Shown here one piece after another: positions 37,480 through 43,149 of a stretch of 64,000 nucleotides of DNA. How positions within the stretch are numbered: the first letter of the stretch is position 1; each line of letters starts with the position of its first letter. The position numbers and the translations under genes are program-made. The notes under the pieces are model-generated. The model was not told where the DNA came from and did no database searches. It saw nothing but the letters and a program-made list of their open reading frames with translations. The DNA is taken from NCBI RefSeq assembly GCF_900109885.1, contig NZ_FOBS01000002.1, forward strand, positions 62,001-126,000, in the 5' to 3' direction. Source of the DNA: Syntrophus gentianae. Its GTDB lineage: Bacteria; Desulfobacterota; Syntrophia; Syntrophales; Syntrophaceae.

Positions 37480-37845
37480 ATGAACCAGCTTCTGTGGGAA
37501 GAAGAGAAGGAAAAGCGAAGAGAGGAATCGGAAAAGCGGCATGCCCGAATGGCCAAGCTTTTTCGAGAAGACCGTCTGGCCTTCGAACGGGAGCGTAAAC
37601 GGCTGCTCGATGAATTTTTCAGCAGTGTCGAGGATGAAGACCTGCGCCAGCGGCTGCGCGCCCTGCAGGCTTCCTTTGAAACGAAAATGAAACACGCCGG
37701 ATCAGCCCATAACCGGTTCGTGCTGGCCCAAACAATCTTCTGGGATAATTTTCATCAGAACTGGCAGCCCGGCATTCAAGAGATCAATGAATCCCTGAAG
37801 AACCTTTCAGGAAAATTCGCCGCCCTCAAGGACTCGGATCACTAA
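37480..37845 (+). CDS. Small charged coiled-coil protein, DUF3135-like
   Basis: A 121-residue protein starting at ATG 37480 (MNQLLWEEEKEKRREESEKR), chosen because GAGGAGG lies 5 nt upstream; the frame is open 23 codons earlier. The first half is a highly charged helix. The segment AKLFREDRLAFERERKRLLD followed by LRALQASFETKMKHA resembles DUF3135 proteins, whose function is unknown. No signal peptide or membrane span. Its stop overlaps the stop of the converging beta-barrel gene by 4 nt. Confidence 0.7.
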   Translation: MNQLLWEEEKEKRREESEKRHARMAKLFREDRLAFERERKRLLDEFFSSVEDEDLRQRLRALQASFETKMKHAGSAHNRFVLAQTIFWDNFHQNWQPGIQEINESLKNLSGKFAALKDSDH

Positions 37846-38663
37846 CGTCCGCGATTCTGATAGGCATAGGTCACGGCGATGCCTACCGAGAACCTTTCGG
37901 AATACTGGCCTTCCGCATTGAGGAAAAATCCCTTTCCCAGAGGCACTGAAATTCCGGCATACCCACCCAGCATCGCTTTATTCTTCAGAGTGGCGTCCTC
38001 TTCCGCCAATGGAATTCCGGAAATGTGATGGGAGGCGGATACCCTGGCTTCCGAATAATGGAGATAGGGGCCGGCATAAAGCACGATCCCATAGGGAACG
38101 GTGGCAGAAACACTGATCCCCGACGTAATGTCCCAGAGATCTTTCACTTTGAGTTCCGTTGAATAGGGGGTGCTGCTGGTGCTGCTGTCCAGGCGCCCCG
38201 AAACCTCGTCCGTAAAGCCGCTGAAGAAATAGGTGCCCTGGAGAAAAGCGCCGACTCCGAAAGATTTTCCCAGCGGGAAAAAAATCTTCGCCCCCAGTGT
38301 GCCGAAAAACTTCTCATTTTCTTCAAAATCGTCTTTGGAAGAGGTGGTTGTATTTACTTCAGACCGGTAGGCATCGTCAATTTCCAGATCTGCGATTCCG
38401 ATTCTCCCGTAAACTTCCCAGAGGTGGCGGGCGCCACCGTAGGCCACCTGTGAGTATATCTGGTTCTGCCGAATGACATACGTCCCGTCATTCTCAAATT
38501 TATCTTCGTGATATCCATAGCCGACGGCCGTATTCAAACCGCCGTCTTCCCTCGAAAGAGACTGCGGGGGGCCGAAGAGACCGCCCGCGACAGCGGGTCC
38601 CGGGATGAAAAAAAGTATCAGTAGAAGCGATATCCCTATAAAGTTCACAACTTTCTTAGTCAT
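37842..38663 (-). CDS. Outer-membrane beta-barrel-like protein
   Basis: A 273-residue protein from ATG 38661-38663 with GGAGG 5 nt upstream; the frame is open 18 codons earlier. The N-terminus is a signal peptide (MTKKVVNFIGISLLLILFFI...AVAGG), followed by alternating polar and hydrophobic short strands rich in Gly and aromatics, ending in a barrel-like GIAVTYAY strand. I do not recognise a named family. It lies 68 nt downstream of mlaA on the same strand, so it may be the last gene of the mla operon. Confidence 0.75.
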   Translation of the reverse strand: MTKKVVNFIGISLLLILFFIPGPAVAGGLFGPPQSLSREDGGLNTAVGYGYHEDKFENDGTYVIRQNQIYSQVAYGGARHLWEVYGRIGIADLEIDDAYRSEVNTTTSSKDDFEENEKFFGTLGAKIFFPLGKSFGVGAFLQGTYFFSGFTDEVSGRLDSSTSSTPYSTELKVKDLWDITSGISVSATVPYGIVLYAGPYLHYSEARVSASHHISGIPLAEEDATLKNKAMLGGYAGISVPLGKGFFLNAEGQYSERFSVGIAVTYAYQNRGR

Positions 38664-38731
38664 TCCGACCTCCGGCGTCTCCGCGTCTTCCCTTGGTAAA
38701 AGGTCCTTGCTCTTCATCCTGTCCCCACCTG

Positions 38732-39781
38732 TTACGGCATCTTTTTTTCTTCCCCAGATGGGGCGTTGTTCTCCGTCTTGTTTTTACGGGCTTCAATTTT
38801 CTTCTTCCGATGCTGGACAAAGGCATCCCGGATGGACAGGTAAGGATCGATGGCCGCTCCCTTGAGGGCCTCATAATCCCCGATTCTCAGGGAGGTATCG
38901 TTTACCGCATCATATCCCCGAACCGCCATGGGGGCATACCAGGGATTCAGGTAGGAGGCGGGATAAAGAAAATATCTGCCGGCGATATCGACCGTATCGC
39001 GAAGGCTGGAAGGTCCCAGGAATGGCCAGAGGATATAGAAGCCCGGCCCCACGCCGTAGACGCCCAGGGTTTGCCCCAGATCGACATTCTGTTTCGGAAT
39101 GTCCAGTTCTTCTTTAGACGAGGGATCCATAAGGCCCCCGATACCCCAGAGGGTATTCACGAAAAACCGGCCTGATTCCTTGGCGGCGCCATTAAAGTCC
39201 GCCTGCAGCAGGCAACTGAGGAAACGGAGCGGAAAGGCGAGGTTTGAAAAGAAATTCTGAACGCTGATCCGCGCCGGCTCGGGAACGACCTTGCCATAGG
39301 CCTGCGACACGGGCTTGAGCAGCCAGAAGTAGAACTTGTCATTGAAATGGTACATGGCCCGGTTAAAGGGCTCCAGGGGATCGGCGATGGTTGCCGGCGC
39401 CTCCTCCCCTTCCTCCGGCACATAATCGGATTCCAGTTCTTCATCCGAATCCTCTGCACCGGGCCCCTCCGTCTCCGGATTCGTCAAGGATTCTTCGGGG
39501 GTTGTGCCTTCCGGGACATCTTCACCCGACACGGCATCCTTGTCCGGGTCACCGGTTGAAGCATCAAGCTTTTTCGGAGTCTCGACACGTCCGAGGGTGG
39601 ACTTTGCCGCCTCTTCAGGGAATTCCTGCGATATTGGCTCAATCTGGGTTGAGCTTCCCGGCGTTTGGAACATAATTGGTGTCCCCCCTGAGGCCGCAGA
39701 GGAAGACGAGGCTTCAACGCAGGGGACACTGACTATAACAAGAAGAACAAGAAGAATGATCGCCGGACAGAGCTTTTTCAT
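38732..39781 (-). CDS. mlaA: MlaA (VacJ) family phospholipid-transport protein
   Basis: Outer-membrane component that removes misplaced phospholipids from the outer leaflet, 349 residues. The signal peptide (MKKLCPAIILLVLLVIVSV) is followed by a long acidic Ser/Pro/Glu-rich stretch (about residues 45-130) not found in E. coli MlaA. The conserved domain begins DPLEPFNRAMYHFNDKFYFW and includes ISVQNFFSNL, FVNTLWGIGGLMDPSSK and DLGQTLGVYGVGPGFYILWP. The only N-terminal cysteine, in SVPCVEA, is preceded by Pro and does not form a standard lipobox, so lipidation is uncertain. Confidence 0.94.
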   Translation of the reverse strand: MKKLCPAIILLVLLVIVSVPCVEASSSSAASGGTPIMFQTPGSSTQIEPISQEFPEEAAKSTLGRVETPKKLDASTGDPDKDAVSGEDVPEGTTPEESLTNPETEGPGAEDSDEELESDYVPEEGEEAPATIADPLEPFNRAMYHFNDKFYFWLLKPVSQAYGKVVPEPARISVQNFFSNLAFPLRFLSCLLQADFNGAAKESGRFFVNTLWGIGGLMDPSSKEELDIPKQNVDLGQTLGVYGVGPGFYILWPFLGPSSLRDTVDIAGRYFLYPASYLNPWYAPMAVRGYDAVNDTSLRIGDYEALKGAAIDPYLSIRDAFVQHRKKKIEARKNKTENNAPSGEEKKMP

Positions 39782-39809: not shown

Positions 39810-40403
39810 CTATGTTTCTTTCACCTTTTTCCTCAGGGTCTGGAGCAGCTGTTCGGGGCTGTTTTTAGCCAGAATTTCATTGAATTGCGTGCGATAGTTC
39901 TGGATCAGACTGATATTCTCCACAACGACGTCATAGACTCTCCAGACGTTTCCTTTCCGGATCATTCGATAGGTGAACGGGATGGTCTTCGAAGAGGTGA
40001 CAATCCTCGTTTTCACCTCGGCCTGATTCTCAGAAATCATGTTTTCCCTGTCAAAGATGACTTCCTCGTTGGCATAGGCAAGAATTCGGTCTGCGTAAGT
40101 CTTCTCGAGCACCTGCCGGAAGAGATGGACGAACTCATCGCGCTGAGCGGCATTAAGATTATTCCAGTTTCTCGCCAAGGCACGTTTGGAGAGTTCCACC
40201 TCATCAAACATCTGAATGTAAATAGTCCGGAGTTTATCCTTTTTGCGCTCCTTGGCCGATGGCGATTTGAGCGCCGGATCTTTCAGTATCGCAAGAATCT
40301 TATCAACATGAACATGAACCGTGTCCATGGCCACACCGGCAAACACCCATGTCGGCGCCAACAGAAACAACCCCAATACGACACTACTTAGAAGTCTTTT
40401 CAT
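39810..40403 (-). CDS. mlaC: MlaC-like periplasmic phospholipid-binding protein
   Basis: Soluble shuttle between MlaA and the inner-membrane MlaFEBD complex, 197 residues. It has a signal peptide (MKRLLSSVVLGLFLLAPTWV, cleavage near VFA-G) and the Ttg2 domain with the segments ARNWNNLNAAQRDEFVHLF and NVWRVYDVVVENISLIQNYR. Its ATG overlaps the mlaD stop by 4 nt. Confidence 0.93.
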   Translation of the reverse strand: MKRLLSSVVLGLFLLAPTWVFAGVAMDTVHVHVDKILAILKDPALKSPSAKERKKDKLRTIYIQMFDEVELSKRALARNWNNLNAAQRDEFVHLFRQVLEKTYADRILAYANEEVIFDRENMISENQAEVKTRIVTSSKTIPFTYRMIRKGNVWRVYDVVVENISLIQNYRTQFNEILAKNSPEQLLQTLRKKVKET

Positions 40404-40888
40404 AATGAATCCTTTTCTTTTTTGTCGGCATCATCCTTCTTTTTAACCTCTCCAAAGGCATATTTGCCAATGAGGCTCTCGATATCCAATGCCGGCTGCG
40501 TTTCGGTAATCGTTCCTCCCGGACGAAGGAGATCTCCGCCTCCCCCTGGATCGATGCTGAGATACTTGTCGCCGATCAATCCTTCCGTTTTGATGGAGGC
40601 GATGGCATCATCATAGATTTTAATGTCTTTCTTGATTGTCATTTCCACAACGGCTTTCTGATCCTTCTGGTCGATGAAAAGTCTTTCCACCCGGCCGATT
40701 TCGATGCCCAGCATATCCACCGTGCTTCCCGCTCTCAAACCGGAAACCGAGGTAAATTGAGCCCGAAGCTTATAGGTATCTTCGCCGAAGAGGGATACAT
40801 GGCCGAGTTTCACGGTCATGTATCCGACCAGAATCAATCCGAAAACGATAAAGACACCTACCGTTGTTTCCATGGCATATTTTTTCAT
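40400..40888 (-). CDS. mlaD: MlaD-like MCE domain protein
   Basis: Inner-membrane-anchored periplasmic lipid-binding subunit, 162 residues. One N-terminal membrane helix (TTVGVFIVFGLILVGYMTV) precedes a single MCE domain with the hallmarks VSGLRAGSTVDMLGIEIGRV and EGLIGDKYLSIDPGG. The C-terminus is a short Lys/Asp-rich tail. It begins 4 nt after mlaF. Confidence 0.95.
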   Translation of the reverse strand: MKKYAMETTVGVFIVFGLILVGYMTVKLGHVSLFGEDTYKLRAQFTSVSGLRAGSTVDMLGIEIGRVERLFIDQKDQKAVVEMTIKKDIKIYDDAIASIKTEGLIGDKYLSIDPGGGGDLLRPGGTITETQPALDIESLIGKYAFGEVKKKDDADKKEKDSL

Positions 40889-40892
40889 GACT

Positions 40893-42137
40893 TCACTCCT
40901 GCGCTGCGCACTGTATGCGGCCGATTTCTTTCTGCTGGCTCCTTGCGGACTCGATGACGGACTCTACCTGTTCAAGCAGGTTGCCCTGGGCCTGTCCGGC
41001 AAGAACAATCATTTCGACGCACTCACCCAAGCCTAGCTTTCCACCGGCCTCAGCCTGAAGATCGCGAATGCCCTCCTTCTGGAAATCTTGAATGAAATCC
41101 ATCATAATGGCATCCGCTTCGGCCCGATCCGAATAGGGAAGCATGGTCACAAATTCCTGAGAATTGATCCGGGTGGAAAACCCTCCGATAGGACCAAAGT
41201 GTTTATCAATGACCCGTCCGGCGCTGTAGATCGCCTTCTGTGCCGCGTCGTACCCCAAATTGGTGGCGACGGCATCCAGTCCCTCCAAGGTAAAGATCAC
41301 AATGGTGAAACTCTCCCCCAGGGCGCTCCCTTTCAGGCTCGCATGATACTGGATCTTGAACTGCCGTTTGGAACGAAGCCCCGTCAGTTCCTGCTGCAAC
41401 CCCTCGAGGCTGCGGAGGACTTCATCCTTGAAGGGATGGTTGAAATCCTCGAGTTCCTCCACCGTTCCCTGAAAAACAATGGTCCGATTATAAAGGGCGA
41501 GAATGCGGTTGGAGATGAAGTACACATCGGGAATCTCATGGCTGACCAGGATCGCCGTAAAGCCGAATTTTCGCTGATACTGGGCGATCATGCTCAGGAT
41601 GGCATTTTTCCGCACGGGATCCTGCCCGGAAGTCGGTTCATCGAAAAGGACAATCTGGGGATCGATGACCAGGGCTCGCGCCAGGGCTGCCCGCTTCTGC
41701 ATGCCTCCGGAAAGTTCGGACGGGTACTTGAACATCGCTTCGCTAAGTTCCGTTTGCTCGATCCGTGCCATGACCCTGCGGTCGATTTCCGCTTTTTTCA
41801 GCTTCGTCGTTTCTCGAAGGGGCAGGGCAACATTGTCGTAGACAGTCATGGAATCGAAGAGCGCGTTGTCCTGAAACATGTAGCTCATCCGGCCCAGGGC
41901 GTCATACCGCTCCCTTTTGCTCATCCGGTCCAGGGATTGCCCTCGGAACAAAATGGTCCCTTCATCGGGTTGGAGCAATCCGATGATATGCTTGAGGAGC
42001 ACGCTCTTCCCCCCACCGCTCAAACCGATGATGGTCGTGACCTCGCCCTCGTAAATTTTCAGATTCACCTTTTCCAGGACGGTGAGAGAACCGAAGCGCT
42101 TCGTCACATCCCGGAATTCGATCAGCGGGTTATCCAT
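40893..42137 (-). CDS. mlaF: MlaF ABC ATPase with a C-terminal degenerate GGDEF-like domain
   Basis: ATPase of the phospholipid ABC transporter, 414 residues where MlaF is usually about 240-270. Residues 1-250 are a complete ABC domain: Walker A GLSGGGKS (38-45), signature LSGGMQKR (142-149), Walker B LFDEPTSG (164-171), switch His200. Residues about 275-395 form a second domain whose order of motifs resembles GGDEF domains: FTIVIFTLEGLDAVATNLGY aligns with the metal-binding strand and helix, and STRINSQEFVTMLPYSDRAEA aligns with the GGDEF loop (NSQEF at 325-329). The metal-binding Asp and the first two glycines are missing, so cyclase activity is unlikely. The reading frame is continuous. 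Confidence 0.92.
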   Translation of the reverse strand: MDNPLIEFRDVTKRFGSLTVLEKVNLKIYEGEVTTIIGLSGGGKSVLLKHIIGLLQPDEGTILFRGQSLDRMSKRERYDALGRMSYMFQDNALFDSMTVYDNVALPLRETTKLKKAEIDRRVMARIEQTELSEAMFKYPSELSGGMQKRAALARALVIDPQIVLFDEPTSGQDPVRKNAILSMIAQYQRKFGFTAILVSHEIPDVYFISNRILALYNRTIVFQGTVEELEDFNHPFKDEVLRSLEGLQQELTGLRSKRQFKIQYHASLKGSALGESFTIVIFTLEGLDAVATNLGYDAAQKAIYSAGRVIDKHFGPIGGFSTRINSQEFVTMLPYSDRAEADAIMMDFIQDFQKEGIRDLQAEAGGKLGLGECVEMIVLAGQAQGNLLEQVESVIESARSQQKEIGRIQCAAQE

Positions 42138-42145
42138 AACAGACC

Positions 42146-42994
42146 TCAGAGCAGAAGGGAAGTGACCACATAATCAGAAACCAGGATCAGCACACAGGAA
42201 AGGACCACGGCCGAGGTCGTGGCCAGACCGACGGCCTTTGCCCCGTGGCTCTCTTGTCGCATGTGGGCGAAATAGCCCTGGTAGCAGCAGACCGTGGCAA
42301 CGATGACCGCAAAGACAAGGGCCTTGATAAACCCGTCGGTGACATCCTTCAGCTCCACGCTGGACTGAACGCGATAGAAATAGGTCCCGGCATTGGCGCC
42401 CATGATCCAGACCCCGGAAACATAACTCCCCAGAATGCCGATCAAGTCGAAGAGGGTCGTCAGGATGGGAAAGCTGATGATGGCCGCGGCGATTCTCGGA
42501 CTGACGAGGTATCTCAACGGATCGATGTGCATGGTGTCGAGGGCGTCAATCTGTTCGGAGATGCGCTGAATCCCGATTTCCGCCGTAATGGCCGATCCGG
42601 CCCTGGCAGTGATCATGATGGCGGTGAGAACGGGTCCCAATTCCCGGATCAGCGACAGAGCGACGAGGGTGCCGAGGGCCCCTTCCGCGCCGACTTTGAC
42701 CAGGGCATGGTAGGATTGAAGGCCCAGAACCATGCCGGTAAAGAGACCAACGAGCATGATGATCATCGTGGATCTCGCCCCGATATAGTAAATCTGCGAA
42801 ATCACCTTCTCCAGCTGGCGGGGACGGAGAATCTTCCAAGAGGCCAGCAGCAGGAAAATTGCCGCTGCGCCGGTATGGTTTACCCAGTTGAGCACCGTTC
42901 TTCCGAGAAGGGAAAAGGGCAGAGAGAACAATCTGCCCGCCTGCCAGCGTTCCCCGTTTCCCAAAGAATCTTGAATATTTGCAGGAACCTTCAT
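42146..42994 (-). CDS. mlaE: MlaE family ABC transporter permease
   Basis: Inner-membrane permease of the phospholipid transporter, 282 residues from the ATG at 42992-42994. A TTG 21 codons upstream is an alternative; neither has a strong ribosome-binding site. The MlaE core is clear: ISQIYYIGARSTMIIMLVGL, ELGPVLTAIMITARAGSAIT with AEIGIQRISEQIDAL, and LVSPRIAAAIISFPILT, with five or six membrane spans. It is the first gene of the E-F-D-C-A operon; no MlaB (STAS) gene is present. Confidence 0.93.
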   Translation of the reverse strand: MKVPANIQDSLGNGERWQAGRLFSLPFSLLGRTVLNWVNHTGAAAIFLLLASWKILRPRQLEKVISQIYYIGARSTMIIMLVGLFTGMVLGLQSYHALVKVGAEGALGTLVALSLIRELGPVLTAIMITARAGSAITAEIGIQRISEQIDALDTMHIDPLRYLVSPRIAAAIISFPILTTLFDLIGILGSYVSGVWIMGANAGTYFYRVQSSVELKDVTDGFIKALVFAVIVATVCCYQGYFAHMRQESHGAKAVGLATTSAVVLSCVLILVSDYVVTSLLL

Positions 42995-43149
42995 AAATCG
43001 AGTCTCTATCCGGGAAGCATTTTCAAATTCTTTCCCTGTTCGGCATAAGCCCAGCAAATGATTAAGCGGTTTTTATTATCAGCTCCAGGTGTCGCAAGTC
43101 AAGAGAAGCTTCCTTACTTTTTACAGGATATCGCCAAAGTCGGCCATTT

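Follow-up and report, generated by a model that had tools for sequence, protein, structure and literature searches.

A small barrel gene behind mlaA in Syntrophales encodes a candidate dedicated outer-membrane partner of MlaA

In the 64,000-nucleotide stretch of Syntrophus gentianae DNA analysed here (the window), the mla genes are followed by a gene for an exported barrel protein. In Syntrophales this gene is located almost always right behind mlaA, which makes its product the best candidate for the porin-like partner that MlaA would need there. With slightly better than even confidence, we favour the reading that the barrel is a dedicated MlaA scaffold which stands in for OmpC/OmpF. A small outer-membrane barrel of about ten strands with a polar interior would serve as the dedicated partner of MlaA. 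The Syntrophales operon would thereby supply its own MlaA holder, made right behind MlaA, and the barrel would act as a scaffold and not as a pore or an enzyme. A more specific proposal is that in Syntrophales MlaA is bound obligatorily to a small closed barrel of its own, which takes the place of the porin trimers, by way of a patch around Thr19 and Ser45. The cell would keep the two proteins in step because translation of the barrel begins directly after mlaA, in many lineages at a conserved near-cognate ACG codon that has a Shine-Dalgarno sequence. This full proposal is tentative, and we give it somewhat less than an even chance. If true, MlaA would have a scaffold dedicated to it, and bacteria a native gene family that initiates at ACG. 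An mla operon with its own barrel would offer a clean pair for co-purification, structural and deletion work, and such a pair would separate the scaffold role of the porins from their pore role.

A single minus-strand run, from position 43057 down to 37842, comprises mlaE, mlaF, mlaD, mlaC, mlaA and the barrel gene in this order (Table 1). MlaE, MlaD, MlaC and MlaA were recognized by matches to their Pfam families, and MlaF was called by its ABC_tran match and its position. A preliminary description of this DNA had placed an exported barrel gene 68 nt behind mlaA. This was confirmed, and the distance holds for the barrel ATG at 38663; a longer reading frame starting from 38717 is also present. 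A simple scan of the minus strand revealed no promoter-like or terminator-like sites between 37842 and 39809. The same scan showed a promoter-like site (40054-40026) and a terminator-like site (40329-40313) in the interior of mlaC, others farther upstream, and a promoter-like site at 43102-43075 ahead of mlaE. Since the site numbers are near the level of shuffled sequence (7 against 4.0, s.d. 2.1, and 11 against 7.5, s.d. 3.1), we infer the operon structure, in which the barrel and the mla genes would share one transcript.

Table 1. Features of the mla run and of the barrel gene in the window.
Feature	Position	Strand	Remarks
Barrel gene	37842..38663	-	final gene of the run; 273 aa including signal peptide
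Barrel signal peptide, residues 1-26	38586..38663	-	by eye and alignment; mature N-terminus GGLFGPPQ
Shine-Dalgarno GGAGGT	38668..38673	-	4 nt upstream of the barrel ATG (38663)
mlaA-barrel gap, 68 nt	38664..38731	-	scan: without minus-strand promoter-like or terminator-like site
Thr 19 codon (mature barrel numbering)	38529..38531	-	clade signature; predicted strand 1, probably lipid-facing
Ser 45 codon (mature barrel numbering)	38451..38453	-	clade signature; predicted strand 2, probably lipid-facing
mlaA	38732..39781	-	Pfam MlaA, residues 133-327
MlaA acidic, Ser/Pro-rich segment, residues 25-131	39389..39709	-	ahead of the conserved domain
MlaA Trp 212 codon	39146..39148	-	Trp in 67/67 barrel-linked MlaAs compared
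mlaC	39810..40403	-	Pfam
mlaD	40400..40888	-	Pfam
mlaF	40893..42137	-	ABC_tran; C-terminal extension with weak GGDEF match
mlaE	42146..43057	-	Pfam; listed TTG start probably too far upstream

Two further details of the run concern its 3′ end and mlaF. The barrel gene and a convergent DUF3135 gene overlap in their stop codons by 4 nt (37842-37845). The C-terminal extension of MlaF matches GGDEF around the Pfam cut-off in seven of the eight proteins tested, three of them over the cut-off. The matching proteins are those of the window and of the relatives L032, L046, L050, L059, L098 and L112, and L043 gave no match at E 0.01. This GGDEF-like extension is a possible nucleotide-signal input to the transporter.

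The barrel protein of the window matches neither NCBIfam nor any PDB sequence, and no Pfam family over the cut-off (the best is AbfB, E 0.094); the profiles Porin_1, Porin_4 and Porin_O_P likewise gave no match over the cut-off. Its relatives end in an aromatic residue, and in the window's genus five extra residues follow this position. The AlphaFold2 model, computed from 30 aligned mature barrels, has a pLDDT of 87.4 and a pTM of 0.80. About ten membrane strands can be read from the strand list of the model, as opposed to the 16 strands of a porin. The conserved charged or polar residues R61 (100%), K100 (97%), Q116 (99%) and E225 (100%) lie on the more polar face of the strands.

Scaffolding of MlaA by trimeric porins is described in excerpts of PMC10719372, and in E. 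coli the porins concerned are OmpC/OmpF. The MlaA partners known or suggested in the excerpts of PMC10212509 are 16-stranded trimeric porins, and the approximately ten strands of the present barrel therefore count against the dedicated-scaffold reading. The excerpts of two reviews (PMC10212509, PMC11131202) present the placement of MlaA without OmpC/F as an unanswered question. The MlaA domain of the window aligns over about 198 residues with the solved MlaA chains of the E. coli MlaA-OmpC/OmpF complexes (PDB 5nuo, 5nup, 5nuq, 5nur, 8i8r). An outer-membrane barrel is the partner of MlaA in these complexes, whereas here it is proposed as such. The window barrel differs from OmpC/OmpF in its predicted ten or so strands, in lacking a porin Pfam match and in that its gene belongs to the mlaA locus, whereas OmpC/OmpF are general porins. 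The same question of what holds MlaA without OmpC/F is raised by OprO/OprP and DcaP, the partners suggested for Pseudomonas and Acinetobacter in the excerpts of PMC10212509 and PMC11131202; these are described there as trimeric porins, in contrast to the small, operon-encoded barrel of the window. Another Mla system with its own outer-membrane barrel is Veillonella MlaEFD. In the portion of PMC10665443 describing it, the barrel is located at the end of MlaD, and MlaA and MlaC are absent, whereas the barrel described here is encoded by a separate gene beside those of MlaA and MlaC. In the available text of a Francisella barrel paper (PMC4981453), VacJ appears only as a changed transcript. No description of the present barrel gene was found in the literature on MlaA/vacJ, as represented by the listings and excerpts consulted.

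The lack of linkage between the barrel family and mlaA in other genomes had been named beforehand as an outcome that would speak against the partnership. The survey of relatives gave the opposite result. The barrel gene lies directly behind mlaA on the same strand in all 30 loci fetched, the window's own included. A named survey gave 65 loci under the titles Syntrophus, Smithella, Smithellaceae, Syntrophaceae, Syntrophales, Syntrophobacterales and unplaced Deltaproteobacteria; mlaA is directly upstream of the barrel gene in 64 of them, and the 65th begins inside the barrel gene. The two sets overlap in species, and merging of the pairs identical in both proteins leaves 67 or 68 distinct pairs. 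Forty further loci, largely from the same species, contain 39 full barrels (L195 has no full barrel and was left out), of which 38 have mlaA on the same strand. Nine of these barrels appeared to be new; L190 and L196 were judged to repeat L042 and L040 with shifted boundaries, which leaves seven. The other neighbours of the window are rarely retained among the 65 loci: rimO and DUF3135 in two each, ftsK in two and msrAB in one. Retention of mlaA in 64 of the 65 loci, compared to two each for rimO and DUF3135, indicates that the linkage is not due to chance.

The distribution of the two genes among 100 related genomes leads in the same direction. The barrel is found in 35 of them, all of one order (by protein search; the profile also gives 35), and MlaA in 60. 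All 35 genomes with the barrel encode MlaA, compared to 25 of the 65 genomes without it (Fisher 5e-11, kinship ignored). The barrel gene adjoins mlaA by coordinates in 34 of the 35 genomes; in G086 they are found on separate contigs, and the match to the barrel is truncated. G015 contains an additional, unlinked barrel copy.

The idea that a dedicated barrel is the partner of MlaA, already put forward in the preliminary description, is thus strongly backed on the genetic side by the near-absolute linkage, the restriction of the barrel to genomes with MlaA among the 100 relatives, the tight spacing of the genes and the porin profiles of the strain's own genome, where Porin_1 and Porin_O_P gave no match and Porin_4 gave one below the cut-off. 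The contact as such was addressed by folding and by covariation. The two genes share one reading frame in 19 distinct loci, where a single stop and a short gap separate them. The AlphaFold2 prediction for the mlaA-barrel read-through of L043, with the stop read as Gly and an alignment of 113 rows including 19 read-through rows, reached a pTM of 0.52 and a mean pLDDT of 75, with much of the MlaA half at pLDDT 54-80; at this pTM the barrel is not placed confidently on MlaA. The covariation of the barrel with MlaA is no clearer than that with MlaC or MlaD in a low-power set of 29 genomes (effective number about 20). A direct contact between MlaA and the barrel is accordingly suggested by genetics and location. 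A complementary distribution of barrel and porins was also considered. Over-cut-off matches to Porin_4 or Porin_O_P, profiles that miss divergent porins, occur in five of the 35 genomes that encode both MlaA and the barrel (G013, G017, G033, G086, G092) and in seven of the 25 that encode MlaA without it (G014, G026, G030, G058, G065, G072, G078), which is a trend without significance (p 0.21), and this candidate was set aside; Porin_1 was sought in the strain's own genome only.

A possible site of contact is seen in the sequences of the linked barrels. A tree branch with support 99/97 splits eight unlinked homologues from the 30 linked rows used, L144 included. Thr19 is present in 67 of 67 linked barrels and in none of the eight unlinked homologues, which have Leu, Val or Gly there; Ser45 is present in 66 of 67 and again in none of the eight. 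The linked but fast-evolving L144 barrel, which is about 35% identical, keeps both Thr19 and Ser45 and has lost R39, F102 and R231. For both of these small hydroxyl residues a lipid-facing orientation is predicted, since the same-face neighbours and the residues of the unlinked homologues at these positions are mostly aliphatic. The signature is compatible with a protein contact, although it marks a single clade and is not a proof. The patch on strands 1 and 2 may represent the site of contact with MlaA.

The most serious alternative, which we nevertheless consider rather unlikely, is that the barrel has a role in the Mla pathway other than holding MlaA. It might dock MlaC, sense or gather misplaced phospholipid or LPS, or stiffen the membrane near MlaA. 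The linkage and the spacing apply equally to such a role, and across the 29 genomes the barrel distances correlate no less well with those of MlaC (0.80) than with those of MlaA (0.75). On the other hand, the barrel gene abuts mlaA and not mlaC, and the signature residues are predicted to face the lipid, as would be expected of a site for a partner that, like MlaA, is embedded in the membrane.

Known outer-membrane lipid enzymes (PldA, PagL, PagP) use a catalytic His, and omptin proteases use catalytic Asp/His. A catalytic His of either kind was not found in the barrel family, as no His column of the barrel alignment exceeds 69%, the best being at position 26. The closest structural matches of the model, in shape only, are a designed 10-strand barrel (Z 17.4), the omptin Pla (13.8), a Legionella porin (13.6) and OpcA (13.3). 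Pla superimposes with an rmsd of 3.4 over 204 residues, so the omptin-type shape is present, but the identity to omptins and OpcA is only about 6-11% and the conserved His column is lacking in the window family. The model is consistent with a closed barrel with a polar interior and without a known catalytic site. It is therefore improbable that the barrel is an outer-membrane lipid-repair enzyme, a phospholipase or acyltransferase beside Mla in the manner of PldA, even though Pla is the second-best fold match and lipid enzymes can operate beside Mla according to excerpts of PMC11131202; besides the His columns, the lack of any Pfam match over the cut-off argues against it.

The barrel is common in the order, yet it is not indispensable. 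A search of the class found the family in 73 of 155 genomes, and the profile matched in 28 of 395 sampled genomes of the phylum. Seventeen of the 18 genomes with matches outside the order were fetched (G489, a weak phylum match with E 8e-4, was left out), and mlaA is located beside the barrel only in the three close ones, G200, G235 and G293. A match to mlaA was found in 90 of 198 genomes of the phylum. Among the 30 best-scoring of these mlaA loci, three (L147, L151, L174) contain the barrel family; the next reading frames of the remaining 27 were judged by eye. From the 25 MlaA genomes without the barrel, 18 regions of 17 genomes were fetched, together with two second copies from genomes that have the barrel. 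In nine of these Syntrophales loci (L098, L099, L101, L103, L104, L107, L110, L111, L112) the mlaEFDCA run is complete but is not followed by the barrel, and the genomes give no match to the profile, which shows that the barrel is dispensable there; the region of L110 includes unread bases. The mlaEFDCA run of L106 is also complete, but its contig ends behind mlaA. On a quick tree of MlaA, the barrel label changes six times, one change being forced by the starred branches, and this count is weakly supported. These changes, possibly several losses, and the existence of homologues without an adjacent mlaA (the eight used in the signature comparison) would fit an unrelated outer-membrane protein that is in the operon by history. 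We give this explanation little credence, since the linkage extends across 16 of the 51 genera among the relatives while the other neighbours of the window are not kept.

Several loci with other arrangements were encountered. A natural fusion of MlaA with the barrel was ruled out, as the long frames in L127 and L128 contain a barrel domain after a non-MlaA protein: one frame each (L127:3659-6049, L128:4862-7198) encodes Ig-like and C-terminal sorting segments (by eye), a second signal peptide and a distant barrel homologue. L145:4626-5516 is a second, mla-unlinked barrel paralogue in a Syntrophales genome, located behind a PAS-type sensor (by eye) and devoid of Thr19 and Ser45. Outside the order, L142:3-650 weakly resembles the barrel (E 4e-6; truncated at the start of the contig) and lies about 1.1 kb before a same-strand mlaC (1796-2446), and no mlaA was found between them. 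An alternative order, with mlaA before mlaC and without the barrel, occurs in L100, L105, L108, L113 and L114, the last of which is cut before mlaF and mlaE.

The dedicated-scaffold reading in its full form includes coupled synthesis of the two proteins. In 30 of 67 pairs, the barrel gene has an ordinary start codon between -8 and +5 nt relative to the mlaA stop (for instance an ATG immediately after the stop, or a start that overlaps it), and in 14 such a codon is farther off. No ordinary start is found in the searched stretch in the other 23 pairs (20 of 68 in a wider stretch), so coupling in these rests on the reading of ACG as the start. The barrel gene of the window itself starts with ATG.

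The wider stretch comprised the 18-40 codons before the mature end, and 20 of the 68 distinct mla-linked barrel genes lack an in-frame ATG, GTG or TTG in it. In 18 of these 20 genes (L009, L014, L022, L026, L027, L031, L036, L038, L042, L044, L048, L049, L055, L065, L066, L068, L089, L095), an ACG is found 21-25 codons before the mature end. The same place (23) is occupied in other barrel genes by ATG (L007, L013, L016, L017, L081, L134) or GTG (L019, L076, L093). The two exceptions are L035, with TCG there, and L088, in which a stop closes the frame just before the mature part. ACG makes up 90 of the 291 Thr codons in the same mature genes, so its use in 18 of 18 is not a codon habit (kinship ignored). 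A Shine-Dalgarno 5-mer at a spacing of 5-9 precedes the ACG in 13 of the 18 genes, compared to 3 of the 90 other in-frame ACG codons, and with 4-mers the numbers are 15 of 18 and 6 of 90. In L048, an in-frame stop leaves a single CTT ahead of the ACG. Some of the 18 genes have ATT, ATC or ATA one or two codons upstream, which might be an alternative rare start; L022, L042, L048, L049, L065, L066 and L068 have none of these just upstream of the ACG. Controls from the same loci have ordinary starts almost throughout, with none missing in mlaF (0/36), mlaD (0/34) and mlaC (0/39) and one in mlaA (1/68). The control with mlaE (7/13 without an ordinary start) is void, because the MlaE start in the window is mis-set. 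The state without an ordinary start changes 13 times on the barrel tree. Among the seven new barrels, both that lack an ordinary start (L207 and L208, mutually related) have the ACG with the Shine-Dalgarno signal. Initiation at ACG is probable in these barrel lineages. Excerpts of PMC9845219 describe bacterial starts other than AUG, GUG and UUG as rare, and no native bacterial gene family with ACG starts was found in literature searches limited to open-access listings and to these excerpts. The pattern recurs across lineages in one gene, while mlaC, mlaD and mlaF of the same loci keep ordinary starts.

The MlaA protein of the window matches Pfam MlaA (PF04333) with E 1.6e-66. The preliminary description had reported an acidic insert of about 85 residues ahead of the conserved domain and no standard lipobox. 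The acidic character (27 D/E, 5 K/R) and the non-standard lipobox (SVPC) stand, and the length had to be corrected to 107 residues. It had further been suggested that the acidic linker replaces the lipid anchor. This is very improbable as a general rule. In the window's genus the MlaA linkers are indeed long (104-107 residues) and a lipobox is absent, but 36 of the 68 distinct barrel-linked MlaAs combine the linker with a lipobox as judged by a simple pattern, and most barrel-linked MlaAs lacking the lipobox outside this genus have linkers of ordinary length. This lipobox pattern, which misses a few likely cases such as L049, L115 and L161, is found in 13 of 45 MlaAs at barrel-less loci, second copies included. 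Acidic linkers are also present in these proteins: after merging of identical MlaA domains, the median linker is 60 residues with a net charge of -8 for barrel-linked and 48 residues with -10 for barrel-less MlaAs. Since acidic linkers occur in both groups and are of ordinary length elsewhere without a lipobox, the linker is no general substitute for the lipid. According to excerpts of PMC11131202, there are other cases of a non-lipoprotein MlaA that is processed by signal peptidase I.

Trp 212 of MlaA was considered as a mark of the partnership. It is conserved in all 67 barrel-linked MlaAs compared and in L144, and is found in 3 of 10 barrel-less Syntrophales proteins and 3 of 22 others; the position is Leu in three solved MlaA chains. 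The independent changes on the tree are too few, and this candidate was set aside. Stand-alone mlaA-like genes without other mla genes nearby are present in L097, L102, L109, L115 and L116. The linkers of the four measured are short (22-24 residues), and the lipobox pattern is found in L097, L102 and L116.
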